NCBI GenBank assembly: GCA_002457555.1
Contig: NTJQ01000003.1
Coordinates: 1 to 64,000 of the forward strand
Length of the DNA stretch: 64,000 nucleotides
Direction: 5' to 3'
From: Marine Group II euryarchaeote MED-G37
GTDB lineage: Archaea; Thermoplasmatota; Poseidoniia; Poseidoniales; Thalassarchaeaceae
The position numbers and the translations under genes were made by a program. Numbering within the stretch: position 1 is the first letter of the stretch; each line of letters starts with the position of its first letter. The notes under the pieces were generated by a model, which was not told the origin of the DNA, searched no databases, and saw only the letters and a list, made by a program, of their open reading frames with translations. This document shows, piece after piece, positions 46,811 through 63,691 of the stretch.

Positions 46811-46827
46811 GACCACCATAGGTGGTC
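46811..46827. other. Triloop hairpin GACCACC-ATA-GGTGGTC between glyA and the M60-like gene
   Basis: 7-bp perfect stem, 3-nt loop, 30 nt after the glyA stop and 6 nt before the next ATG. Confidence 0.55.
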
Positions 46828-46833
46828 GGACAT

Positions 46834-49800
46834 ATGAGGACAAAGGCCGCCACGTCCGTCCTCCTCACAATGCTGATGCTATCATCAGGCTGTTTGGGTC
46901 TGTTCGGAGATTCATCCGTGGAGCCCGAGACCATTGATTGTGAAGTGCAACCAAATCATCCAGATTGTATTGAGGAACAGATAACGGAAGATGATTGTAG
47001 ACCAGATCAAATCTTCACAGGATCCGAATGTCGTCAAATGCAAAAGCCAGAAAATCTGTCTTATGGTTTGAGTATGGTATCTTTAACAATTGGAGAAGAA
47101 ATGCAATCATTAACGCCTTCATTTACAGGGGATGGCCCTCAATTTTGGATAATAAATCCGAGCCTTCCCTTAGGGATCATATTCGACAGAGATAGTGGAG
47201 TGATTTCAGGCACCTCCGAAGAAGTAAGTGAATCAATTAGATACACAATTATCGGGTCAAATGCAGTAGGTTCAACGAATGCATGGATTGACCTAGAGGT
47301 AATTGTGAATTCACCTACTGCAATCAGTTACCTAGAACAAACACTTGCTTGTGAGTTAGGCAAACCTTGTGGAATTTCCGCTCCAATTCACGAGGGAGGA
47401 ACGCCCGAGGATTGGACGGTATACCCACAATTACCTAATGGAATTTCACTATTTGCCGACGGCTCAATTTCTGGAACCTCTAATCAATTGGGTGATTCTA
47501 ACCATACAATAAGCGCCGCAAATATGGCAGGTTCAATTGAAACTACAATACGAATAATCATTCTCCACGAAACTCCAATGGGGTTAGGGTATGGAAGTAA
47601 CAATTTGCAACTTAGTATAGGTGATGAGGTACAGGTAATCCCTTCTACTACGGGCGGAGAAATCGTCTCATGGTCTGTAGAGCCGCCATTCCCTGAGGGA
47701 CTCAATTTAATGCAAATTGATGGTTCAATTCGTGGCTCGCCAACAGAGGTTCAGACCCTAACCATGCATAGGATTACGGCTTCTAACTCAGGTGGTTCGA
47801 TTTCCGTTGATGTTCTAATCAGTGTTGCCGATATGCCTGTGTCAAACTTGTTATACAATCCTTGGGAACATGATTTAAGAATTGGAGAACAGATTTCTAT
47901 TACACCGTCATATTCTGGAGGGACACCCGATTCATGGCAAATATCCCCTAGCCTACCTTCAGGATTCCAATTCAATTCAGCTAATGGTACAATTTCCGGA
48001 GTCGCCAGTGAAGTACAATCATCTTGGGAATCTTGGACAATCTGGGCGAACAATACCGGAGGATCAACATCTACTATTTTCAAAATCAAAGTTACCAGCA
48101 TGGCTCCTGACCTGATATCATGGGAAAATAATGAGTATATTCTAGAATCTAATCAGAGTATCTTTATTCAAGCAAATAACGATGGTCCGGAAATCGAATC
48201 TTGGGAAATCGAACCACAACTTCCAGACGGCCTCAATCTTCTTGATAATGGCAGTATCTTTGGCACGCCAACACACAATACTAATTGGATAGAGTATACC
48301 GTTTGGGCAAATAATTCTGGAGGGTCAGTGGGTCTTAATCTTTGGATTGTGGTTCATGATTTGAGGGCGGATCAAGAGGAATTGTTACGCGGAATGGGGC
48401 AAACCAATTGGGGTGGCTGGCCATCTCCAATTCTACCAATTGGAGAGTGGTCTTTTCCCGTTGGATTTGCTGAAGGTGGCTATACAGATAGTATCCCAGT
48501 TATCTCTGCGAGTCATGTTGGTAGAGGCAAGATGCTAGGATATGGTCACGAAAGTTGGGTGGATGGCGCGGGAGTCGAAGAGACAGAATTCTCACTACGT
48601 GCTGTTGAGTGGGTTTGTGGTGAGAACGCGAACGTAGGTCTCGCCTATGGAGCAGGATTCGAAGACTTCGAAGACGAGTTACAAGCCGAAGGACACACAG
48701 TACATCTCTCAGTAACACCCGCGGACCTTACTGGAATAGACTGTCTATTGGATGAATTTTGGAACGGGCACGACGACCAAGATAATCTGAATTTAATCAA
48801 TTTCATGCTTGCAGGAGGTGGGCTAATAATGGGTGGTCACGCTTGGTATTGGTCATACTCAAATTCAGATGTGGCTCACAATTACCCCGGTAATAAGATT
48901 GCAAAAACTACCGGTCTTTTCGTCTCTCAGGCTTGGGGTTACAACAGTGTCAATCTAACCGAAATCCCAAATCCTTTGGCGAGACCGCAATCCGCGATCC
49001 AAGCGATTTACGATGACCGCATAAATAACCAAAAACTCTCTATTAATGACGCTTCAATAGCCGATTCTACACTCTCGGTTTGTACTGGGGTTGTGAGTTT
49101 AGATTTCCATGATTTCTGGACTCCACTTCGAGATACAGTTAACGCAACAGGATGGACAGTAATCGAATATGGGACTCTTTGGCAAAATGTTGGACATAAC
49201 ATCGGAAATGACCCAGTCGCCGACACGCTACTCAGGGTCGAGGCTGCGCTAACACAAGGGCTTCCAGCGAACGAATTACCAGCACATCCTAGCCATGTGG
49301 AATTTCCTGGCGAAGTGCCTGCAAATGCTACTAGAGTGACAACCACTGTTTCAGTCGATGGTAACCAAAGTGGCCTTCCGAGTAACTTTGGTTATGCGGG
49401 CGCTAGAGCTCATGTTAGGATGAGTACAGGACTATACGCAGCACCTGGAGAAGTTGTGACGGCAACGCTTCCTTCGGAAATAGTCGACTCAGGAACCTAC
49501 GTCTTGGTAGGGGCCCATAGTGACAAGTTGTGGTCAAAGAGCCAATTACATCGCCATCCAGAGATTGTCAGATGGTGGTATGTTGATGATGTTAGTATGG
49601 AGGTTGGAAATGCCTTCGGGGGGCCGATTTACATTGCAATAGAACCGGGTTCTACATTGGGCGATTTCCAAGTTAATTTCACAAATGCGGTAGAGGCCCC
49701 GATGTTTGTTCTTGGAGAGACTTACGATTTTGAGTGGATATATTCGGAAAGCGATAATCCCGCTCCTTGGGCCGAATTGGTTTCGGATAATTTCATTATG

Positions 49801-50835
49801 ACAGTTCCAAGTCATGAAATTCGGGATTTAACAAATCCAACAGATTTGATGGACTGGTGGGATATTGCTCTAGAAATGGAGCATGAATTGTATGGCTTCT
49901 TACCGTGGCCAAGAGTTGAGCGAGCCGTCTTTGATGCTCAGATATCAGCAGGTTGGATGCATTCTGGATATCCATTCATGGCTCATGATTTGAGCGTAGC
50001 AGGAGTAGTCAATGTATCCTATATGTCAGAGAACGGAGATTGGGGGATGTTCCACGAATTAGGACACAACCATCAATGGATGCCTTCCACGCTTCCGGGG
50101 ACAACAGAAACTGGATGCAACTTTGCTAGTGTCTATCTGATGGAAGATTTGGTTGGAATTGAGGGTCACAACGCAGTTGACCCAGCTCAAAGAGCAAATC
50201 GTATGAGGGGCTATTTTGATGATGGTTCAAATATAGCCAATTGGTCTGTTTGGACTGCCTTAGATACCTATTTGATAATCAAAGAAGAGTGGGGTTGGGA
50301 TCCGATAACTCAAGCCTTAACTGTATATTACACACTACCTGCGGCAGAGGTTCCAACAACTGGTGATGAGGAATTCAATGCCTGGGTTTTGCATCTTTCA
50401 AATACAACGGGGTATAATTTAGCTCCTTATCATGCTGCGTGGGGATTCCCACTTACACAGAATACACACGATTCGCTTACCCATTTACCAATCTGGGTAG
50501 ATGATCCGTTACGAGGAGAATATTTCACCTATCAAGCGATACTTCGAAACTTGGGTGTTAATAATACCACATCCAGCAGTTCAACATTTAGTTGGGAAAC
50601 TTACGATAATGGGACAAATACCTCACTAACAGTTTACTACGGACCAATGGATATGGGTAACCAATCTTGGGTTTGGGCCAATAGTGCATCCTTAGGCGAC
50701 TCAGCAGTTGGTTGGTCAGATTACGAAATTACAGGCTTATCTAGTAATTCTACGTACTACGCCAGAGTCAAGGCATCGAGTGAAATTGGAGACACTTGGT
50801 TCGGTCCTGTTAATTGGACTACATCCAGCAATTGA
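46834..50835 (+). CDS. Secreted lipoprotein M60-like (TCAF/enhancin-type) metallopeptidase with putative Ig (He_PIG-like) repeats and C-terminal FnIII-like domain
   Basis: Lipobox LMLSSGCLGLFG; five Ig-like repeats (W.I.P.LP.G......GSISGTP); zinc motif NGDWGMFHELGHNHQWMPSTLPGTTE. Confidence 0.85.
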   Translation: MRTKAATSVLLTMLMLSSGCLGLFGDSSVEPETIDCEVQPNHPDCIEEQITEDDCRPDQIFTGSECRQMQKPENLSYGLSMVSLTIGEEMQSLTPSFTGDGPQFWIINPSLPLGIIFDRDSGVISGTSEEVSESIRYTIIGSNAVGSTNAWIDLEVIVNSPTAISYLEQTLACELGKPCGISAPIHEGGTPEDWTVYPQLPNGISLFADGSISGTSNQLGDSNHTISAANMAGSIETTIRIIILHETPMGLGYGSNNLQLSIGDEVQVIPSTTGGEIVSWSVEPPFPEGLNLMQIDGSIRGSPTEVQTLTMHRITASNSGGSISVDVLISVADMPVSNLLYNPWEHDLRIGEQISITPSYSGGTPDSWQISPSLPSGFQFNSANGTISGVASEVQSSWESWTIWANNTGGSTSTIFKIKVTSMAPDLISWENNEYILESNQSIFIQANNDGPEIESWEIEPQLPDGLNLLDNGSIFGTPTHNTNWIEYTVWANNSGGSVGLNLWIVVHDLRADQEELLRGMGQTNWGGWPSPILPIGEWSFPVGFAEGGYTDSIPVISASHVGRGKMLGYGHESWVDGAGVEETEFSLRAVEWVCGENANVGLAYGAGFEDFEDELQAEGHTVHLSVTPADLTGIDCLLDEFWNGHDDQDNLNLINFMLAGGGLIMGGHAWYWSYSNSDVAHNYPGNKIAKTTGLFVSQAWGYNSVNLTEIPNPLARPQSAIQAIYDDRINNQKLSINDASIADSTLSVCTGVVSLDFHDFWTPLRDTVNATGWTVIEYGTLWQNVGHNIGNDPVADTLLRVEAALTQGLPANELPAHPSHVEFPGEVPANATRVTTTVSVDGNQSGLPSNFGYAGARAHVRMSTGLYAAPGEVVTATLPSEIVDSGTYVLVGAHSDKLWSKSQLHRHPEIVRWWYVDDVSMEVGNAFGGPIYIAIEPGSTLGDFQVNFTNAVEAPMFVLGETYDFEWIYSESDNPAPWAELVSDNFIMTVPSHEIRDLTNPTDLMDWWDIALEMEHELYGFLPWPRVERAVFDAQISAGWMHSGYPFMAHDLSVAGVVNVSYMSENGDWGMFHELGHNHQWMPSTLPGTTETGCNFASVYLMEDLVGIEGHNAVDPAQRANRMRGYFDDGSNIANWSVWTALDTYLIIKEEWGWDPITQALTVYYTLPAAEVPTTGDEEFNAWVLHLSNTTGYNLAPYHAAWGFPLTQNTHDSLTHLPIWVDDPLRGEYFTYQAILRNLGVNNTTSSSSTFSWETYDNGTNTSLTVYYGPMDMGNQSWVWANSASLGDSAVGWSDYEITGLSSNSTYYARVKASSEIGDTWFGPVNWTTSSN
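47060..48360 (+). repeat. Five putative-Ig domain repeats within the M60-like protein
   Basis: Repeated motif SWxIxPxLPxGLxLxxxxGSIxGTPxExxxxxxYTIxAxNxGGS. Confidence 0.75.
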
Positions 50836-51906: not shown

Positions 51907-53176
51907 TAATCTGAGAAATTCGAGATTCTACACTTACCTGCTCTATCGAGACCGAAAAAGCAGAGGATATTTTCTCCGACAAACCATCAGGCAATTCCTT
52001 GCGATGATAAATTACAATCAATGGGTCACCAATCTCGACTTCATCACCAACTTGGGCTTCTATAATCGCCCCGACAGCATGGTCTACGCTGTCTGTCAGA
52101 GTTTTCCTACCTGAGCCCAATTCGAGACAGGCGAGTGCAATTGACATCGCATCAATATCCTTAATCCATCCTTTTTTCTCAATGTAAATCTCGGTTGAAA
52201 ATAAATCATCTTCTAGTAGGCCCAGTGAACTTAGCATAGCGTGGTCGCTTGCAAAGTCATCACGATTACCTCCTTGAGATTCGACCATATCTAGGAATTT
52301 TGTGAAAGCGCTACCATCATTCAAAGAATTATGAATCATTAATGCGCCTTCTTCCATGTTTTCGACAATCCCCGATGAAGCCAATAAAATCCCTGCCTGA
52401 ACACAAACCAGTTCTTCAAGGTCATGCGGCCCACGACCACAGAGAGTTTCAACAGATTCAACTATTTCGAGCGCATTTCCTACTGCGCAGCCTAATGGTT
52501 GATCCATGGTTGAAAGGACTACAGAAGTAGCAATACCCATCCCATTCGCTGCATCTACCATCGATTGGGATAGCGCTTCGGCTTGTTCTCTTTCGGCCAT
52601 GAATGCGGCTCTTCCATATTTTACGTCTAGAACCAAAGCCGAAAGTCCCTCAGCGGCCTTTTTCGATACGATTGAGGAGGTGATTAGTGGAATAGAAGCA
52701 ACAGTACCTGTTACATCGCGGAGCGCGTACATGCGCCTATCGGCGGGAACTAGTGACTCCGTTTGTCCAACCATTGCAAATCCAATTTCTGCAACTTGTT
52801 TTTGAAGTTCATCTATGGATAGATCAACGCGGAAACCTGCTATACTTTCCAGTTTATCCAAAGTACCTCCAGTGTGCCCTAGGCCTCGCCCGGAAATCAT
52901 CGGCACTTTGAGTCCACAAGCGGCCAGAGCGGGAGCTAAAACGATAGAGACCTTATCTCCAACCCCACCCGTTGAGTGCTTGTCAACAACTAGATGGCTC
53001 CAATCTTTTGGCCACGCCAAAACCTTTCCTGAATCCCTCATTGTTTTGGTAAGAAAGATTGTTGAGTTTTCATCGAGTCCGTTTTTGAATACATTTCGCA
53101 ACCAATCGATGACCTGTTCATCACTAAGTGAACCATCGACAACTCCATTTACAATATCAGCGATTAAATCGCTCAT
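51899..53176 (-). CDS. deoA: Thymidine / pyrimidine-nucleoside phosphorylase
   Basis: VVDKHSTGGVGDKVSIVLAPALAACGLKVPMISGRGLGHTGGTLDKLESI; ALRDVTGTVASIPLITSSIVSKKAAEG. Confidence 0.93.
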   Translation of the reverse strand: MSDLIADIVNGVVDGSLSDEQVIDWLRNVFKNGLDENSTIFLTKTMRDSGKVLAWPKDWSHLVVDKHSTGGVGDKVSIVLAPALAACGLKVPMISGRGLGHTGGTLDKLESIAGFRVDLSIDELQKQVAEIGFAMVGQTESLVPADRRMYALRDVTGTVASIPLITSSIVSKKAAEGLSALVLDVKYGRAAFMAEREQAEALSQSMVDAANGMGIATSVVLSTMDQPLGCAVGNALEIVESVETLCGRGPHDLEELVCVQAGILLASSGIVENMEEGALMIHNSLNDGSAFTKFLDMVESQGGNRDDFASDHAMLSSLGLLEDDLFSTEIYIEKKGWIKDIDAMSIALACLELGSGRKTLTDSVDHAVGAIIEAQVGDEVEIGDPLIVIYHRKELPDGLSEKISSAFSVSIEQVSVESRISQIIG

Positions 53177-56100
53177 ACCTCATCCTCGCCGTATTCATCG
53201 CGTAATTCTTCGATACTCATTCCTTTATCCAATAGGGATTGAACCTGGTCTCGATCAAGTTTTTCGAAGCCAAAGCCATCTAAAACAATCCGACCGTGTA
53301 CTCCATCATCTCTACCCTCTGTCAACTCCCTCGTGTCTTCGGATGTATCATCGAATCGAGTGCCTTTGAGAATAGCTTGTTCAGCATTAACATCATCGAA
53401 TCGATAACCGGAATCGTCGATTAGTCGAGAATCGGTTTTTGTACCGGGTCTCCTTACCATTGTTAGTCCCGCACCAACTAAAGAAATCGCTGCAATTACT
53501 GTCAGTGTCAATAGAAATTTTGCCCCCGGGGTAGAAAGTGGGTCATCTCGAACATTGTCCTCTATCCACCCTCCATTTTCTCCATCATTGTTTTGTTCAT
53601 CACTGACATTGGTATTGTTTCCTTCACCATTGTTGTTGTCGATGATTTCTTCTTCATCGCACCCAAATTGTATGCCATCAGGTATCCCGTTATCATCAAC
53701 ATCATTGGAATTCATGGCAACTACTGGAGACCGTCCTAATGATTGAGCAAATTCAGCTTCCTCGCCATCTAGAATACAATCGTCATCCGTGTCATTGTCA
53801 TTTGGATCACCTCCCCAAAGGTACTCATTCAGATTATTCAAACCATCTTCGTCTAAATCTAGTGATTGCTCGCTTAGAGCGGTTCCAAGTATTGCTGCAG
53901 AATGCCGATTCAAACCGTATTGAATCTCCCACATATCTGGTAGAAGATCTCCATCTGAATCTGTGGTTGTGTCAAGACGAGACCAATCCTCATCGAATGA
54001 TTGCAAATACTCAGAGGCAAGTTCTTGTCCATGAATTAACACTCCCATTTCTCTATTTCTCAATGCGGCGCTTGAACCCCAATTCATGCTTCCAATAAGA
54101 ACGCTCTCCCCATCAATTATTGCACCCTTGTTGTGAAGTTTGGTAATTGTGTCTGACCAAGCCATGAGTCGTGCTGTGACATCAAGGCCTTCGGTTGCAT
54201 TCCAATTTGTATTGAATAGGTTCACCGCATCCCTAATTTCATCATCCACATCGGCATAAAAGCCATTCAATAGTAAGCGGACTTGGACTCCTCTCTGAGC
54301 TGCTTGGTAGATTGCTTCGATAATTGGATTATCACCGAATCCCCAATACCAATCTAAGTCTAAATATTGCAATGAGAGTTCAATGGTCGAATCCGCCGAT
54401 TCAATCATTTCGATTATTCCATCTACACAATCGTCTGGACATGTCATCAATTGCATTTCGAAAGGTCCAGAATATAACTGAGTACTAGTTTCTTGAAATG
54501 AGCCACCATTGGCATCTTCCATTTCCCAATCGAAAGTTGGTGCATGATTGGATGAGTGTGGTGATATGTGCAGGTGGTTTTCATTTTCGTCCCATGATAG
54601 ACGAGATAGAACCAATTCAGCAAATGAATTTGAATTGACAATTACTGACCACTCTCGATTCCCAACCCCATCTGGAGGTAGGCTTGTATCCTTCCAATTT
54701 CCTGATGAAATCCATACACTTTCCGTATCCCTCACAGCAACCTTGCTGTGGATATAAGAATATGGAGAACTAATCAAACTCGGGTCTTCCATCCAGAGAA
54801 CGGTTGCTCCTGCATCATGGAGAGTTTGAGCGTGTCCTTTTTGTTTATTTTTGGTGCTACTTCCATCTAGTATACCTTCTTCTAGAAGAATTGTTACAGA
54901 AACACCTCGGTTAATTGATTCTAGTAATGCGGTCGTCAGGTCTGGACTCATAAACTGGTAGACATGTAGATGAATCGATGTTTCTGCCCCCCCAATCCAA
55001 TGCATCAAGTCATTGAACGAAGTGTCTGGGCCGATTGAAGCTGAGACAGTCGAGGATTCTTCTAAGGTGATTTTTCCTCCATCACAGAATGTAGAAGCTC
55101 CAATTCTAATCCATCTATACTCCCAATCTTCCCCTGTGTTTGTGTCTGGATTATCTCCACACCCAGATCCACGCATCAAAATCAACCCCGGAGTTCCATC
55201 CCCTGGTACTGAAATAGCGCCGCCATTCCAACCCTCGATTTCAGCATCGCCGCCTCCGTATACAACCGCATCAACCACAGTTCCATTTGGAGATTTTAGT
55301 TGGAGAGCGCTTCCTGAATCGACAAGCCAAGGCATATTGTTCATCACAACATTCCCATCAATGGCAGATATGCCTCCATCCAAAAATAGGTTGTCCGGAT
55401 TTTCGGTTAGAACAATCGACCCTCCTGCAGGTATCAATAGTTCGTTGAATGTTGATATCCAGGGTGTTGTGGACCTAATGCGTTCTATGGTCCAGCCAGT
55501 TAAATTTACAACTTCATTACCCAAATTACTCAATTCAAACCAATCGTTATCCCGGTTAGGTACTTCACCCGGCATAAGACGAGTGAACTTGACATCATAT
55601 TTTCCATTCCATTCTGAAGGTTGTAAATCAGTAGGTGTTTCTGGATTATTTTCGTCATCCGAACCTCCAATATTTTGGCTTCCTGGGGTTGATTGTTCTG
55701 AGTCAATCCACTCCGCGCTTCCGTTAGATGGTATTTTGGAAATTCCATTTGACGCTTGCCCTGTGGTTACTTCGTCAACTACACCACCTTGTTCATCTGT
55801 CAGGAAAATAGTCTCTCCAGCGTTGTTTATTCTTAGAGTTCCAATTTCATTTTCAGCAATAACTGCGTATGCTCCTGCTTCGATGTGATAAGGCGTAGTT
55901 AAATCACTAAATCCTACCCAACTAGTTTCATTGATTGGATGTGTCCATCCGCCAATATCGACAATTGTCCAGCCCTCAAGACTCACAGAACTAGACCCGG
56001 TATTGAACAACTCAACCCATTCACCCTGAGGAAAGATTCCTTGATCTGAGCCATCCGCATTAGGCATTATTTCGTTAATACAAACTACGCATGAGGAATT

Positions 56101-56220
56101 TTTTATGGCCTCTCGATTTTCTTTAGAATCATCGATTTGTAGAATTTGAGAGGAGCCTAGTACACTTAGTGTCAATACTGCAATGATGACTACTGCTAGC
56201 CTTGCGGGACCCCTTTCCAT
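53173..56220 (-). CDS. Secreted, C-terminally TM-anchored protein with two lamin-tail-like domains, two PLD domains and a TSP3 segment
   Basis: CINEIMPNADGSDQGIFPQGEWVELFNTGSSSVSLEGWTI (LTD); YIHSKVAVRDTESVWISSGNWKD and KLHNKGAIIDGESVLIGSMNWGSSAALRNRE (PLD HxK); C-terminal TM and acidic tail. Confidence 0.88.
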   Translation of the reverse strand: MERGPARLAVVIIAVLTLSVLGSSQILQIDDSKENREAIKNSSCVVCINEIMPNADGSDQGIFPQGEWVELFNTGSSSVSLEGWTIVDIGGWTHPINETSWVGFSDLTTPYHIEAGAYAVIAENEIGTLRINNAGETIFLTDEQGGVVDEVTTGQASNGISKIPSNGSAEWIDSEQSTPGSQNIGGSDDENNPETPTDLQPSEWNGKYDVKFTRLMPGEVPNRDNDWFELSNLGNEVVNLTGWTIERIRSTTPWISTFNELLIPAGGSIVLTENPDNLFLDGGISAIDGNVVMNNMPWLVDSGSALQLKSPNGTVVDAVVYGGGDAEIEGWNGGAISVPGDGTPGLILMRGSGCGDNPDTNTGEDWEYRWIRIGASTFCDGGKITLEESSTVSASIGPDTSFNDLMHWIGGAETSIHLHVYQFMSPDLTTALLESINRGVSVTILLEEGILDGSSTKNKQKGHAQTLHDAGATVLWMEDPSLISSPYSYIHSKVAVRDTESVWISSGNWKDTSLPPDGVGNREWSVIVNSNSFAELVLSRLSWDENENHLHISPHSSNHAPTFDWEMEDANGGSFQETSTQLYSGPFEMQLMTCPDDCVDGIIEMIESADSTIELSLQYLDLDWYWGFGDNPIIEAIYQAAQRGVQVRLLLNGFYADVDDEIRDAVNLFNTNWNATEGLDVTARLMAWSDTITKLHNKGAIIDGESVLIGSMNWGSSAALRNREMGVLIHGQELASEYLQSFDEDWSRLDTTTDSDGDLLPDMWEIQYGLNRHSAAILGTALSEQSLDLDEDGLNNLNEYLWGGDPNDNDTDDDCILDGEEAEFAQSLGRSPVVAMNSNDVDDNGIPDGIQFGCDEEEIIDNNNGEGNNTNVSDEQNNDGENGGWIEDNVRDDPLSTPGAKFLLTLTVIAAISLVGAGLTMVRRPGTKTDSRLIDDSGYRFDDVNAEQAILKGTRFDDTSEDTRELTEGRDDGVHGRIVLDGFGFEKLDRDQVQSLLDKGMSIEELRDEYGEDEV

Positions 56221-56305: not shown

Positions 56306-59050
56306 TCAATCTTCGTCTTTTGATACAGCAATCGGTCCCATGCCGCCGAATGCCAGAGCTCCCACAGCAATCATAGCTATGCTTGCAACATACAATACTG
56401 CAGTCACAGAATCAATTACAGCTGTGCCTTCTAATTCACAATCCCCACTGCCGCCGAAATCAGTCCAGTACATTGGTTCCATGTTATCCAGAACCCGACA
56501 CTGGAAGGTTTCAGCATCTTCATCTGCAATTTCCGAGAAAGTATGAATCTCGAAAACCGGATGTGTGTCTACACCCATCTCAGGATTTAGCATTCCAGGA
56601 CCTCTTAGGTCTAGGTGGAACATAGAGACAGATTTCCCGTACATCGCTACTTGGGTAACTGGCTCTACCTTGATATCCACATTTGAACCAAAGTATACAG
56701 GTAATGCACCTGGAAGTACATCAACAAAGGATGCAGACCCAATTAACTTGGCTTGTATTTGGTTTTGTGAAGGATCTAGGTTTACTGTGTGTGCCCTCAT
56801 TTCAATTCCCTTGTATGTTTCCATGTCTCCAGGTACTGATTCCGCCATTGCGTATCCTACAAGATTCACCCTAAACGGGTCATCACTATCTGCGACACCA
56901 CCTACTGCCCCAGCTACTACGGTATTTTCGTTACCGACGTGGGCGGATAGTAATCCAAGAGTGGAAGTTTCTCGGTGTGGTGCCCTCCATGGTAGATGCT
57001 CTGTAAATCCATACAATTCACCTTCTTCACAGGGATACATGCCACTTGAATCAGCATCTGCCATTGTACCATCGGAATTTAATTTGAAATCACAAAATCC
57101 ATTTCCATCGGAGTTGATGTAACCTTGAAGCAATCTTTGTCCCATATTGTCTCCTTTTGTACTTGCGATATATACATCATAATCTCCAGTGGTAACGCTA
57201 TCTGAGCCGAAATATGTTTCATTTGTTTCGAGGCTTACCCAACCTAGGGCCATATTGTCAGGTTGTTCGTAAACAACATCGGCCACGATAATATCTCTCC
57301 AGCCAAACAACCAGTTATCGACTGGCTGCGTGATGTAAGCAGAACCGCCGTATTGGAAGCCCAATAGCGCGCCAATAACTTGGTCGAACATGAAGTCTGC
57401 AACCCAACTACGGACCGCAACGGCGTCACTTTCCGAGATATCATACAATCCAGCCACATACGCATCATTCCAATCGGTTGTTTCCGCCCCTTCTTCTGCA
57501 GGCAGGGTACTTCCCGATAATTCTCCATACATGAAAATACTAGCAAAATCAGAAGTCAATGCATAAGGAGATGTGTAGAGGATTTCAGTCACCTTAGCAA
57601 CATCCATATCAATCGTACCTTCGAATTCAGCTCTGTTCAAGCCAATGGGTATGTAACCACCAGCAATAGGCTCTTCACCTCCGAAGGAAATTTGCCACCA
57701 ATCATCAGCATTCAGTGTACCTTGTCCACCCGCAAGAATCATCTCAAATTCAGTTGGAGTACCAACCATCCCTATCCATTCACCGGCATAGTCAGACAAT
57801 CCCAACAACTGTGTTAGTCCAATACCATATGTTGTCATTGTACCAAATAGGTCACCTTGTGCGCCTAATAGGAAGAGGGCGATTCCATTTAGTGGGATGC
57901 CACTGTAGTCCGAAACCGAAAGAAGTCCGTTTGGAATTTCAGCGTCGGGTGTTCCAAAAATTACACCATTCAAGACATCTGGGTTGGTAATGTCAACTCC
58001 ACTGACTTCGTTCAATCTCTCTCGTAGGTTGTCTACTTGGGTCAAATCAGCCATACCTCCGGCGGATAGGAATTCTTGTCCAGCAAGTGCATAAACAGCC
58101 CAGTCCATGTGAGTTAACTCAACAGGATCCGTAGAACCATATCCAAGAAGTGCTGCACGCATTGGAGTGACCGTTTCGCTTGGTTCTCCCATGCCCGCAA
58201 TCAGCATAGGTCCTATTTCACAAGTTAATGCAATACAAATTCCCGTTGAAGGGTCAACTGCTGTGTGAAGGATTGAATCTGCTGAGAGGGAGAAATCTGG
58301 ATCCATTACACCCATTCCAGAGGAAGAATTCCAATTATCATATACTAGGTCTAGAATAACAGGGGCGGCTATTGCTGCTGCTGTTGATTCATTGTAACCT
58401 GCATCTTGTAGTGCATTCTCATACTCAGTGACCATGCCGTCTATTGATTCAGCCGCCCAAATCGAAGGGGCCCTGTTTTGCAAATCATTGGCAATCATGT
58501 TGTTAGCGAATCCCGCCTTAGCAAACACTTCTCCATAGATGATTCCAGTTGAAATCCCCGCAATTCTTTGTGTATTCCAAAGGATGTTAACTTGAGTTAT
58601 TTCGGTTGAACCTGGTACAGAGTTGTGTGAATCTCCATTTTCATCTATCCAAGCACAGTTCTCGCACCACTCAAAACTATCATATTCAGAATAAGTTATC
58701 TCACCAGCATCGTAATCGAAATCTAGGATTTCTCTGGTTGTAGTAACCTCATAGATGAAAGGACCCATTTTCGTAAATTCATGTGCTTCACCTGCATCTA
58801 CCCCATCCGGGTTATCAAGAGAGTATGCAAAGTAAACTCTCTCAGAGGTCGAAATAAGCCATTCGTCGTCATAATCTGCAGTGTAGTTTTCGTTTCCGTC
58901 GTCATCATAGCCATCATAGCCATCGGCTACAACATCCTGAACTCCAGCCTCAACTTGCCCTGCTACGAAGGGCGCTAATGCTAGGAAATTAATTGCTATT
59001 AGCATAAGTCCGGTTGTTACTATTACACTTGCCTTTTGTTGGTTGTCCAT
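56306..59050 (-). CDS. CD36/LIMP-2/SR-B-like two-TM membrane protein (914 aa)
   Basis: N-terminal TM, RVYFAYSLDNPDGVDAGEAHEFTKMGPFIYEVTTTREILDF, GSASFVDVLPGALPVYFGSNVDIKVEPVTQVAMYGKSVSMFHLDL, C-terminal TM. Confidence 0.65.
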   Translation of the reverse strand: MDNQQKASVIVTTGLMLIAINFLALAPFVAGQVEAGVQDVVADGYDGYDDDGNENYTADYDDEWLISTSERVYFAYSLDNPDGVDAGEAHEFTKMGPFIYEVTTTREILDFDYDAGEITYSEYDSFEWCENCAWIDENGDSHNSVPGSTEITQVNILWNTQRIAGISTGIIYGEVFAKAGFANNMIANDLQNRAPSIWAAESIDGMVTEYENALQDAGYNESTAAAIAAPVILDLVYDNWNSSSGMGVMDPDFSLSADSILHTAVDPSTGICIALTCEIGPMLIAGMGEPSETVTPMRAALLGYGSTDPVELTHMDWAVYALAGQEFLSAGGMADLTQVDNLRERLNEVSGVDITNPDVLNGVIFGTPDAEIPNGLLSVSDYSGIPLNGIALFLLGAQGDLFGTMTTYGIGLTQLLGLSDYAGEWIGMVGTPTEFEMILAGGQGTLNADDWWQISFGGEEPIAGGYIPIGLNRAEFEGTIDMDVAKVTEILYTSPYALTSDFASIFMYGELSGSTLPAEEGAETTDWNDAYVAGLYDISESDAVAVRSWVADFMFDQVIGALLGFQYGGSAYITQPVDNWLFGWRDIIVADVVYEQPDNMALGWVSLETNETYFGSDSVTTGDYDVYIASTKGDNMGQRLLQGYINSDGNGFCDFKLNSDGTMADADSSGMYPCEEGELYGFTEHLPWRAPHRETSTLGLLSAHVGNENTVVAGAVGGVADSDDPFRVNLVGYAMAESVPGDMETYKGIEMRAHTVNLDPSQNQIQAKLIGSASFVDVLPGALPVYFGSNVDIKVEPVTQVAMYGKSVSMFHLDLRGPGMLNPEMGVDTHPVFEIHTFSEIADEDAETFQCRVLDNMEPMYWTDFGGSGDCELEGTAVIDSVTAVLYVASIAMIAVGALAFGGMGPIAVSKDED

Positions 59051-59157: not shown

Positions 59158-60813
59158 TCAAGCAAAGCCAAATGCATCTAATTCTCTAGCGAAGGTGTAA
59201 ATCATGATAGGCACTAGAATAACTCCCATTCCATGTGACCTTCGTATTCCAATTCTAGGTGCCATAAGTCCGATCATGGTTCCAATAACTAAAGTTCCGA
59301 CTCCAATCCAATCTGTTGAAATCCAAACTAAAATTGTAATGAAGGCACTTACCGAAATCACTAGGTTTCTGAGAGGGACCAATTCGTGCATTTTCAACAT
59401 ACCCTTTCCAACCTCAATCATTACCGGAACAGCAAATAATCCCGAGGCTACAGTAATAGCCAGAAGTCTAACGAAATCTGCAGGTGGTTCTACAGCATTC
59501 CACATATCGATTGGATACATCATATTGAGTGCTAATGCCGCTCCAGACCGAGGTCTTCCTACCATGTATAAGAAGCCTAGAACCATCACTGTAACAGCGG
59601 TGTTGACTGAGGACAGAATTGCAATAATTTCCAAGTCTCTTTGTTGGTTATTGTTCACTAAATCTAAGTCGGGTGTGGCGCCTGCTTCGGAAAGAGCCTC
59701 TTGGAATAACAAACGGTCATCTTCCGCTAGGTCTTCCATACCCTCAAACACCATCATTTGGGGCATCTGTTCAAATCCAGGCTGAGTTCCGTGCTCGAAG
59801 TCTGCTGGTATGTAATTTGGATCGGTCAATTTACCCCAAAAGTTTCGAGCGCTCATAACCACGACAGTTGCCTGAGCAGCGGTCATCCCGGGAAGGATAG
59901 CCATTACTGAGGATACAACTGCTGAAAGGAATGTTGGAACTGCCAGGGGTTTAGGATCAGGCATTTCCCAATTTTGTTCTTGTGGAGGAATCTCACTTGT
60001 TGTTACATAGATGTCAATTAGGTTTGCAATTCCGAATAATCCCGCCAAGCTTGGGAATAGTAGTGAGGCGGATGGAATTCCGACGGGAGATCGAGCAGGT
60101 AACTCGAATACAGCCCATCCATAAAATCCAGTGAGTAAGAAATAGGCTGTAGCGACTAGTATTCCAGCGGCCCTCGAGCTTTCTCCAAGTCGGAAGTCGA
60201 TTGCATCATATCGTCTTCGAATACTGAGTCGCCCCATCGGTATCGTAAATTCGAATGGTTTTTTCAATGGCCATTTCAGTCTCTGAGTTATTTTTTGTGA
60301 CCATACTGGCCATGGCAATCGAGTAGTCTCAGTCAAAATTAGGAATATAGAAATGAATAGTAGAAGCCATGGTAATTGTTCACGGCTGGCTTCATACAAA
60401 CCTAATCCGGGGTTTTCACCGAAAAGCAAGCGCGCGACAATCAGTAGAGGGATGGACATCAGCATACCCATTTGCGAGCCGCGAGCGGAATATGCAACAC
60501 CTTGAGCAGCTTGGCCCGAAATCAACATCCTGTGGCCTGGAAGTAATGCAAGTGCCATGTTGTCGTCAGGTGCCCCAACTAATGCACTTGGAATGTAATT
60601 CAGGAATGTGTGGACAGTTCCACAGGCGACGATAATTCCTGCAACCGCATCTAGAGGAATTCCTATCCCCACCGCAACAGGAGAAAGTGACAAGGCAATC
60701 AAAGCAACGTTATTGACGTGGAATCCCGGAATCAAGCCGGTTAAACAACCAAGGAATATTCCGAATATGAATGACCCGATTAACCAACCAAAATCGATTA
60801 ACCAGGGGTCCAT
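59158..60813 (-). CDS. TctA-like (DUF112) multi-pass membrane protein
   Basis: FLGCLTGLIPGFHVNNVALIAL...GTVHTFLNYIPSALVGAPDDNMALALLPGHRML; SSVMAILPGMTAAQATVVV. Confidence 0.85.
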   Translation of the reverse strand: MDPWLIDFGWLIGSFIFGIFLGCLTGLIPGFHVNNVALIALSLSPVAVGIGIPLDAVAGIIVACGTVHTFLNYIPSALVGAPDDNMALALLPGHRMLISGQAAQGVAYSARGSQMGMLMSIPLLIVARLLFGENPGLGLYEASREQLPWLLLFISIFLILTETTRLPWPVWSQKITQRLKWPLKKPFEFTIPMGRLSIRRRYDAIDFRLGESSRAAGILVATAYFLLTGFYGWAVFELPARSPVGIPSASLLFPSLAGLFGIANLIDIYVTTSEIPPQEQNWEMPDPKPLAVPTFLSAVVSSVMAILPGMTAAQATVVVMSARNFWGKLTDPNYIPADFEHGTQPGFEQMPQMMVFEGMEDLAEDDRLLFQEALSEAGATPDLDLVNNNQQRDLEIIAILSSVNTAVTVMVLGFLYMVGRPRSGAALALNMMYPIDMWNAVEPPADFVRLLAITVASGLFAVPVMIEVGKGMLKMHELVPLRNLVISVSAFITILVWISTDWIGVGTLVIGTMIGLMAPRIGIRRSHGMGVILVPIMIYTFARELDAFGFA

Positions 60814-60822
60814 CTAAACACC

Positions 60823-62412
60823 TCATCTGATATCTATACAGAATTGCATTGTATTATCGACAGAATCTTCGGTGGTTGATAATCTGCCTGTCCAATCAAG
60901 AGGTCCCTGCCCCTCAGTTTGGCTAGACTCAGTGCCGTCTCCTAGTAAACAGACACTTTCGTCTGAACCGGATCTCTGAATCCACTGGTTACCATCCTCG
61001 TCCATAATTGCCTCCCCGTTAATAACCACAAGTTTTCCAATATCCCATTTCCATGAATTGTAACCATCTCCCCAGTTTAGAGTAGTTGGTGCTGGTGCTT
61101 GACCGAGAGTCCAAGAACGAGCTTCAAGAATCACTCGCCCCTCGCTTTCTGACCAAATTATTGTAGCATTGAAGCGGATTGATTGACCACCCTCAATATA
61201 TTCTGCGTGCTCACCGATTAGATGTATTCTGAGTTTGGTTTGCCTAGAGAAGTAATCTGCACCGTCTCCAACATATCCTTTGTCATAATCTGGAGATATA
61301 GGGTCTGTAATCCATCCTTCAAATGTATGATTCTGATTTAGATAATCAAATGGATTCTCAGCAACATCGAGTAGTGGCGTTACATCATCTCCAAAGTTGC
61401 CAGCAGCATTTTCGGCTGAGTATCCGTCAAGCCTTAGACAAATGGTTGCTTCATCCGTAGACCAAATTAATCGTCCAAACCATTTTTGTTCAACACCCTC
61501 TAATCCCTCATCTACAACATCCTCTGAAGGCAATAAACAAAGTCGGTCTGTAGGTGAATTTCCAATTAACCACCAGCTACCTGATGATTGAGTTGATGTT
61601 CCATCTATTGATACGTTCTTACCAACTTCATAGGTCAACGTGTAGGGTTCTAATTCCCAAGATAAGTCAACAACCGATCCTTCGTTAAGAACTTCTATGG
61701 CAGTTGCTTGCACAAGTAACCTCCAACGTAGAGAACGTTGGTCATATTGTAACCAACCAGATATTTCCACATGACTTCCGGCTTCAATCCAATCTATTAC
61801 TCGCCCCTCCACTTGCATATACAATAAATGGTCTGCGTTACCATAAGAGGGGTTATCCATAAGACTCAATGAATGATATGTTACATCAGGCTCAAGAGGT
61901 TCGGACAAATAGCCGTCTACTTTTACAGACATGTTGGCAAATTCTTGAGGATTCATTGCAACTTCGACTAATTGCATAGCGGTATATTCTACGGAGTCGC
62001 AATCCGAATCAGCACATTCTATAGCGCCGTATCCATTGGATGACAACCAAATCCGACCGTTCCATTCAGTCACTTCTCCTTCGACAGTAATTATCGTTCC
62101 AATTGGAGGGATATTGTTATCTCTGTCTACAAACCATCGAACTTCGACTACTGAGTGGCCATCAACTTCTCGAACTTGCAAATCTATCCTGTCTGCCTGT
62201 TCACCGTAAGGGTCTACAACGAAACTGGTCAGCACCCCTTTGACCTTGACGGTCTCTCTTGGATATTCGTGAATTTCATCTATGTCGATAAAATCCGGCT
62301 CACGGATTACCGCGTAGAAATTCATTGTTGATACTAGCAAAAGAGATGTGAAGAACATCACCCAGAGCTTCGCCATGAGTCCCGGATAGGTTTCTAATGC
62401 TTGAATATTCAC
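60823..62412 (-). CDS. Membrane-anchored extracytoplasmic protein with repeated OB-fold-like segments
   Basis: N-terminal TM; repeats such as ETVKVKGVLTSFVVDPYG...IGTIITVEGEVTEWNGRIWLSSN and HVEISGWLQYDQRSLRWRLLVQA. Confidence 0.55.
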   Translation of the reverse strand: MNIQALETYPGLMAKLWVMFFTSLLLVSTMNFYAVIREPDFIDIDEIHEYPRETVKVKGVLTSFVVDPYGEQADRIDLQVREVDGHSVVEVRWFVDRDNNIPPIGTIITVEGEVTEWNGRIWLSSNGYGAIECADSDCDSVEYTAMQLVEVAMNPQEFANMSVKVDGYLSEPLEPDVTYHSLSLMDNPSYGNADHLLYMQVEGRVIDWIEAGSHVEISGWLQYDQRSLRWRLLVQATAIEVLNEGSVVDLSWELEPYTLTYEVGKNVSIDGTSTQSSGSWWLIGNSPTDRLCLLPSEDVVDEGLEGVEQKWFGRLIWSTDEATICLRLDGYSAENAAGNFGDDVTPLLDVAENPFDYLNQNHTFEGWITDPISPDYDKGYVGDGADYFSRQTKLRIHLIGEHAEYIEGGQSIRFNATIIWSESEGRVILEARSWTLGQAPAPTTLNWGDGYNSWKWDIGKLVVINGEAIMDEDGNQWIQRSGSDESVCLLGDGTESSQTEGQGPLDWTGRLSTTEDSVDNTMQFCIDIR

Positions 62413-62749: not shown

Positions 62750-63691
62750 ATGATGAGCACTGCAAGTAAGGTTCGTCCTGCCCTGATGATATTGGTAGTG
62801 TACTTTCTCAGCACATGGGCTGCAGCTGCACCCGTTCAGGCTCAAGGAGCAGTTCCAGACATCACCTTGACATGCGACCAACCTCAACCAATTGACGTCT
62901 ATCCGGGCGCTACGAGATCAAGTATAATCAACTGTCGAATTGAGAATCCAACCGTCCACCAAGAAAAGGTAAGGATCCAAATTCAAGCTGGAGTTCTCGC
63001 GTTCTCAGGTCCCGCCACTATGTCAATAGGAGGAGGCTCAGAGGTATCATTCCAAGTACTCGTAAGGGCTGAGCTCCGAGCTCCTGAAGGACAGCATCAG
63101 GTAACTGTCAGTGCAGAGGTGACGATGGCGAATGGAGTTCCGGTAACCAGCGAACCATCGGCCGCTAATGTCATGGCGATTATCCGACAGTTCAGTCGAC
63201 TTCGAGTGGCCTCGGAAGTAGCCTTCTTGCAATTACGTCCGAAGGTCGATTATAACTTGGTTTTCGATGTTTATAATGACGGAAATGCTCTGGATCGATT
63301 CAATATTCAAATCGACAATTATGACCAATTGAACGATGATGGATTCCAACTAAGCATCCCCTTGGTCAGCGTGGAAATTGAATCTATGGCCCCTCCTGAG
63401 AAGATTCGAGTTCAGATGAGGACTCCGAAGAACCAAGGTTGGACGGATACATATTTCTCCTTACAGTTCAAGGCGACGTCTGAATACTCTGTTAGGACAG
63501 AGGGTATCCCGAATTACCAAATTCAAACGATGACCGTTTACATCAGAGGAGTTTACCTTCCAGGCTTCGAATTGATTGGTACTTTGATGATTACCGCTCT
63601 AGCAGCGGCTGCATTTGCAGGTCGATCTACAAGACTAACCAATGATGAGGAATCAGACGAGTTAGAACCGCTAGATGCTCGTTTGTTCTAA
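62750..63691 (+). CDS. Secreted cell-surface protein with two Ig/NEW3-like domains and PGF-type C-terminal anchor
   Basis: Signal peptide, CRIENPTVHQEKVRIQIQ... and VYNDGNALDRFNIQI; tail YLPGFELIGTLMITALAAAAFAGR. Confidence 0.7.
   Translation: MMSTASKVRPALMILVVYFLSTWAAAAPVQAQGAVPDITLTCDQPQPIDVYPGATRSSIINCRIENPTVHQEKVRIQIQAGVLAFSGPATMSIGGGSEVSFQVLVRAELRAPEGQHQVTVSAEVTMANGVPVTSEPSAANVMAIIRQFSRLRVASEVAFLQLRPKVDYNLVFDVYNDGNALDRFNIQIDNYDQLNDDGFQLSIPLVSVEIESMAPPEKIRVQMRTPKNQGWTDTYFSLQFKATSEYSVRTEGIPNYQIQTMTVYIRGVYLPGFELIGTLMITALAAAAFAGRSTRLTNDEESDELEPLDARLF

Follow-up and report, generated by a model that had tools for sequence, protein, structure and literature searches.

A highly divergent CD36-superfamily protein with a large helical head in Marine Group II archaea

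CD36 and LIMP-2 (SCARB2) belong to a receptor family (PF01130) that is usually deemed eukaryotic. The apex helices of LIMP-2 bind protein cargo. Three ectodomain disulfides are a trait of the animal members, and membership of PF01130 in Pfam carries no such requirement. Few archaea are as abundant in the surface ocean as those of Marine Group II (MGII), which are uncultured. Lipid handling is found in both related groups of known function, CD36 (fatty acids) and the actinobacterial LmcA/PgfA (crosslinking of a TMM analogue; PMC8972800, PMC9678360); in LmcA, the three-helix bundle of the apex is reduced to one helix (PMC8972800). Passages of three reports describe MGII as fatty-acid degraders (PMC6336850, PMC6461757) and count beta-oxidation genes among those they transcribe most strongly in situ (PMC9723583); those passages name no protein for fatty-acid entry into MGII and make no mention of CD36. 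In the literature searched, no published description of a CD36-like protein in MGII or other archaea was found.

The window analyzed here, a stretch of 64,000 nucleotides, contains an uninterrupted minus-strand reading frame (56306–59050; ATG at 59050, stop at 56306) encoding a CD36-like protein of 914 amino acids (P0001). The contig that carries the gene is 121,837 bases long and comes from a genome bin of 1.28 Mb (completeness 79%, contamination 0.1%) whose host belongs to the Thalassarchaeaceae (MGIIb). An N-terminal transmembrane (TM) segment at about residues 8–28 (58967–59029) and a C-terminal TM helix at residues 874–901 (56348–56431) were located by hydropathy (best 19-mers 2.16 and 2.26, respectively) and by an AlphaFold2 model, in which helices 3–43 and 874–901 bracket the ectodomain; the hydropathy threshold was passed at the N end in 85 of 87 family members and at the C end in 83 of 87. 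The protein closes with a short, acidic cytoplasmic tail of 13 residues (902–914; 56309–56347), assigned from its sequence and from tail length across the family. The ectodomain comprises an N-terminal part of the CD36 core with the motif NPDG..GPFIYEV (residues 60–166; 58553–58873), an all-helical head inserted within the apex of the CD36 fold (residues ~167–540; 57431–58552), and a C-terminal part of the core (residues 541–866; 56453–57430) that carries the motifs NWLFGWRD, KGI, PGALPVYF, EPVTQ, and IADEDAETF and shows beta-strands in the model. The initial annotation had given the frame the same coordinates and had proposed an archaeal origin, an ectodomain between two terminal TM segments with a short tail, and a central region of ~350 aa; hydropathy, the model and the taxonomic placement bear this out, the central region measuring 374 aa here and 355–457 aa across the family.

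The resemblance to CD36 and LIMP-2 that had been proposed from sequence by eye is upheld by profile comparison. The protein scores 30.7 bits against PF01130 in two matched stretches (curated Pfam cut-off, 26.5 bits), and the same model was matched by 38/38 relatives sampled across the order (best E 1.6e-20); families other than CD36 were matched by at most one of the 38 relatives scanned. When the family profile was compared with all PDB sequences, LIMP-2 (1.5e-5) and CD36 (4e-4) came first, followed by one non-significant entry. A phmmer search of PDB with the single protein aligned LIMP-2 to residues 545–632 at a non-significant E of 1.5; divergence from CD36 is therefore deep. Since alignment of the full-length family to the CD36 profile misruns through the insertion, the latter was omitted for profile-profile comparison with CD36 plus LIMP-2, which then gave a score of 62.9 and a collinear alignment of the whole ectodomain, against a maximum of 21.8 (mean 16.0, s.d. 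2.5) for 60 column-shuffled CD36 controls. Taken by part, hhalign scores were 50.4 for the N-terminal part (control maximum 21.4) and 30.0 for the C-terminal part (control maximum 23.1), whereas the insertion scored 18.4 against a control maximum of 18.9, which is noise. The N-terminal match covers PF01130 positions 54–134, and the C-terminal half of a relative exceeds the Pfam cut-off on its own at positions 141–257; the insertion thus splits the CD36 domain at profile positions ~134–141, between "NLAV" and "LLWGYRDP" of CD36 at the membrane-distal apex, with collinearity on both sides. The three motifs first picked out by eye (NPD..GPFIYEV; PGALPVYFG..VEPVTQ; IADEDAETFQCRV) each lie in the place expected from CD36, and two more align that had not been listed, NWLFGWRDIIV with ELLWGYRDPFL of CD36 and the family consensus KGIP(V/M) with KGIPV. 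NCBIfam holds no family for this protein, no relatives were found in viral contigs, and no viral structure was a significant match. We regard the 914-aa protein as almost certainly a true, highly divergent homolog within the CD36 superfamily.

The AlphaFold2 model, built from a 66-sequence alignment, has a mean pLDDT of 84.9 and a pTM of 0.73; residues 158–567 are almost all helical and well predicted, and the remainder is largely beta. In a Foldseek search of the PDB, LIMP-2 and CD36 were the only matches with E < 0.001 (probability 1.00, E 1.9e-5 to 1e-3), which answers in the affirmative the question of fold raised by the initial annotation. TM-scores to these structures are low (0.38–0.40 by target, rmsd 8–9 Å), so that the match owes its significance to local 3Di similarity and to sequence. 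Such modest values would be expected given the large insertion and an identity of ~11%, and they are the main weakness of the model-based structural case. Next after LIMP-2 and CD36 came LmcA of M. smegmatis (probability 0.93–0.97, E 0.035–0.07, not significant), then noise. LmcA has independently been likened to CD36 and LIMP-2 (PMC8972800), so that CD36, LmcA and the archaeal family form one structural neighborhood.

The head is a single all-helical block of ~380 aa (pLDDT mostly 79–97) that has neither a Pfam match nor a CD36 signal; the Foldseek search with the full-length model gave no PDB relative for it. Sequence and profile comparison gave no signal for an internal repeat or a duplication of the core; an apparent match of the head to the N-terminal piece was discarded, as it consisted only of the 34 residues common to both cut pieces. 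The mean frequency of the majority residue is 0.62 in the core and 0.55 in the head. Conservation of the core does not fall below that of the head, which points to a function retained by the core itself. Net charge of the head is −6.7 to −15.5 per 100 residues in all members (K+R median 2.6%), whereas the CD36 apex has 4 K/R against 1 D/E; polyanion binding through an apex of this kind is therefore unlikely. The entire ectodomain is acidic, as are some neighboring secreted proteins, so the acidity of the head is partly a matter of lineage style. The only cysteines of the C-terminal half are C653, C674, C851, and C871, and by profile alignment none falls at a CD36 disulfide position. With neither the cationic apex nor the three disulfides of animal members, the label "scavenger receptor" first attached to the protein does not carry over, and the reading it implies is weakened.

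The gene was found in 52 of 59 near relatives. A Pfam-model search across the phylum detected it in 65 of 293 genomes (56 over cut-off), every one of them from two families of a single order, with none elsewhere among the genomes sampled, and it was absent from all 14 control genomes. A search of 340 genomes from the class with the family profile matched 257, the matches listed all lying in two families of the Poseidoniales (Marine Group II), so that the question of breadth raised at the outset is answered by order-wide presence. Chance resemblance, or contamination of a metagenome bin with eukaryotic DNA, would account for the non-significant single-protein search; it is hard to square with PF01130 matches in every relative sampled, with shuffled controls that score far lower, with a single-exon gene embedded in conserved gene order, and with a distribution that includes a one-contig genome (G036) and assemblies titled isolates AG-404-A19, AG-422-I18, and AH-287-M04, which are single-cell genomes by name. 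We consider it exceedingly improbable, and refuted by the genome counts and controls. When two human sequences serve as outgroup to the family tree, the stem is very long and deep support is weak, and therefore no direction of transfer is claimed. Two copies occur in some genomes. In genus g3, two CD36-like genes lie head to head (L061, 5422–10664; L063, 2492–7251; L062, 7513–11837), each belonging to a different main clade of the tree; one of them nests among Poseidoniaceae sequences, which suggests a transfer within the order. The second copy of G036 (L074, 8547–11236) is split into two overlapping frames of 578 and 331 aa, by its sequence apparently a frameshift or a decaying copy. Two contigs filed as "Pedosphaera sp." and "Gemmatimonadetes bacterium" (L161, L172) contain the gene within the gene order of Thalassarchaeaceae; their source bins are probably misnamed or mixed.

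Many Thalassarchaeaceae share the gene order OB-like, TctA, CD36-like, PLD/lamin-tail, thymidine phosphorylase, acyltransferase, with gaps mostly of 60–110 bp. In the window, all on the minus strand, a TctA-family membrane transporter (59158–60813; PF01970, E 5.8e-39) lies 107 bp upstream of the CD36-like gene, and 9 bp beyond it is a probably secreted OB-fold-like protein of 529 aa (60823–62412), recognized from a weak PF01336 match below cut-off and from conserved order. Downstream, 85 bp away, is an extracellular enzyme of the PLD superfamily with lamin-tail domains (53173–56220; PF13091, PF00932), present in this position in 31 loci; it has two intact HxKx4D motifs, its nearest PDB entries are mitochondrial cardiolipin hydrolase and the endonuclease Nuc, and it may thus be a phospholipase or a nuclease. 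Related genera have the CD36-like gene but neither TctA nor PLD; in g4 and g2 loci a divergently oriented gene of the Acyltransferase family (PF01553) adjoins it, and in Poseidoniaceae the neighbors are unrelated, with no lipid gene among them. Given lipid-type neighbors in some lineages and unrelated ones in Poseidoniaceae, the neighborhood hints at lipid handling and is no proof of it. Two plus-strand genes of the window lie farther out: the most constant upstream neighbor of the cluster, a divergently transcribed 313-aa protein with a signal-like N-terminus, a hint of an Ig-like fold and a C-terminal TM segment (62750–63691), and a secreted protein of 1337 aa that combines He_PIG/Ig repeats with a peptidase domain of the M60 (enhancin-like) type (46822–50835; E 4e-55) and whose proximity to the CD36-like gene is conserved across many Thalassarchaeaceae.

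The explanation that we consider the best, and hold with middling confidence, is a surface tunnel of the CD36 superfamily, topped by a helical head, that takes up lipid for beta-oxidation. Fatty acids or other amphiphiles freed outside the cell would be captured by this two-TM surface protein, the lineage-specific head of ~380 aa acting perhaps as a lid or docking module; the beta-barrel core, through a putative lipid-conducting cavity, would lead them to the outer leaflet of the membrane like a channel, and flipping followed by acyl-CoA ligation would then feed beta-oxidation. Acyl-CoA dehydrogenase was found in 39 of 39 relatives. Genus g7, of the same family, lacks the gene in all ten genomes listed (G023, G033, G457–G464), and acyl-CoA dehydrogenases are present in the one tested (G023); fatty-acid breakdown therefore does not need the CD36-like gene, and g7 offers a natural comparison group.

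Three other functions were weighed against lipid uptake, and we rank them as lipid export, then protein binding, then partnership with TctA. In the first, the protein would work outward like LmcA/PgfA, receiving a lipid or a lipoglycan from an exporter of the RND/MMPL type and depositing it in the outer leaflet or a surface layer. LmcA is the next Foldseek neighbor after CD36, the C-terminal half of one relative matches PorA/DUF3068 below threshold, and MMPL-family exporters were found in 5 of 5 Poseidoniales genomes tested; MMPL matches in 12 of 14 control genomes, however, make their presence uninformative, and none of the annotated neighborhoods has an MMPL gene next to the CD36-like gene. 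PF11271 (PorA/DUF3068) was over cut-off in none of 12 genomes, with one sub-threshold match of 18.7 bits; by sequence the family is nearer to CD36 (38/38) than to PorA (1/38). We know of no outer membrane in MGII archaea, a further point against outward trafficking, which on balance we judge unlikely even though PgfA works with MmpL3 (PMC9678360).

A receptor or adhesin resembling LIMP-2, whose head would bind a secreted protein or particle surface with lipid passage secondary or lost, appears slightly less probable again. The part that binds cargo in LIMP-2 is here expanded about tenfold, and surface and secreted proteins are plentiful in the Thalassarchaeaceae neighborhood; conservation of the barrel core nonetheless equals or exceeds that of the head, and every member has an acidic head where the CD36 apex is cationic. 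Attachment of MGII to particles, proposed in one report (PMC6336850), would fit such a role. Improbable, in our view, is a carboxylate uptake unit in which the CD36-like protein replaces a missing TctC and hands an amphiphilic carboxylate to TctA: in 33 fetched loci TctA is the immediate upstream gene and shares the strand (gap −32 to 111 bp), the order also seen in the window, but other loci have a divergent, unrelated neighbor, Poseidoniaceae loci have no member of the same TctA cluster, and CD36 proteins that feed TctA are not known to us.

Lipid uptake thus remains our preferred reading, and an order-wide conserved CD36 relative gives MGII a concrete, testable candidate for it. That the protein belongs to the CD36 superfamily and has a new architecture is well supported, and a family usually assigned to eukaryotes is now placed in an archaeal lineage, beside bacterial LmcA structures. 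A bolder view, which we offer tentatively and think rather doubtful, is that the superfamily was not a eukaryotic invention, that a single superfamily of lipid tunnels has deep archaeal and actinobacterial (LmcA) branches, and that the MGII member, its head having a fold unseen before, is the protein still missing for fatty-acid entry. Compared with LIMP-2 and CD36, its best profile and fold match, the archaeal protein shares two TM helices, one large ectodomain, a short tail, and the collinear motifs NP..GP(F/Y).Y, L.GW.DP, KGIPV, PVY, EP.TG, and IGDE.A..F, but is about twice as long through the ~380-aa helical block at the apex, is very acidic, and has no cysteines matching the sites of the three CD36 disulfides. 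FadL is an outer-membrane barrel; FadL-type importers share the proposed task, movement of long-chain fatty acids across the surface, whereas FadL is non-homologous and the archaeal protein has two TM helices in a single-membrane host. LmcA/PgfA (DUF3068/PorA, PF11271) of Actinobacteria is likewise a membrane-anchored, asymmetric beta-barrel with a CD36-like structure (PMC8972800), from another phylum and envelope; its apex is reduced, whereas that of the archaeal protein is hugely expanded, a natural variant of the CD36 fold with the apex enlarged about tenfold.
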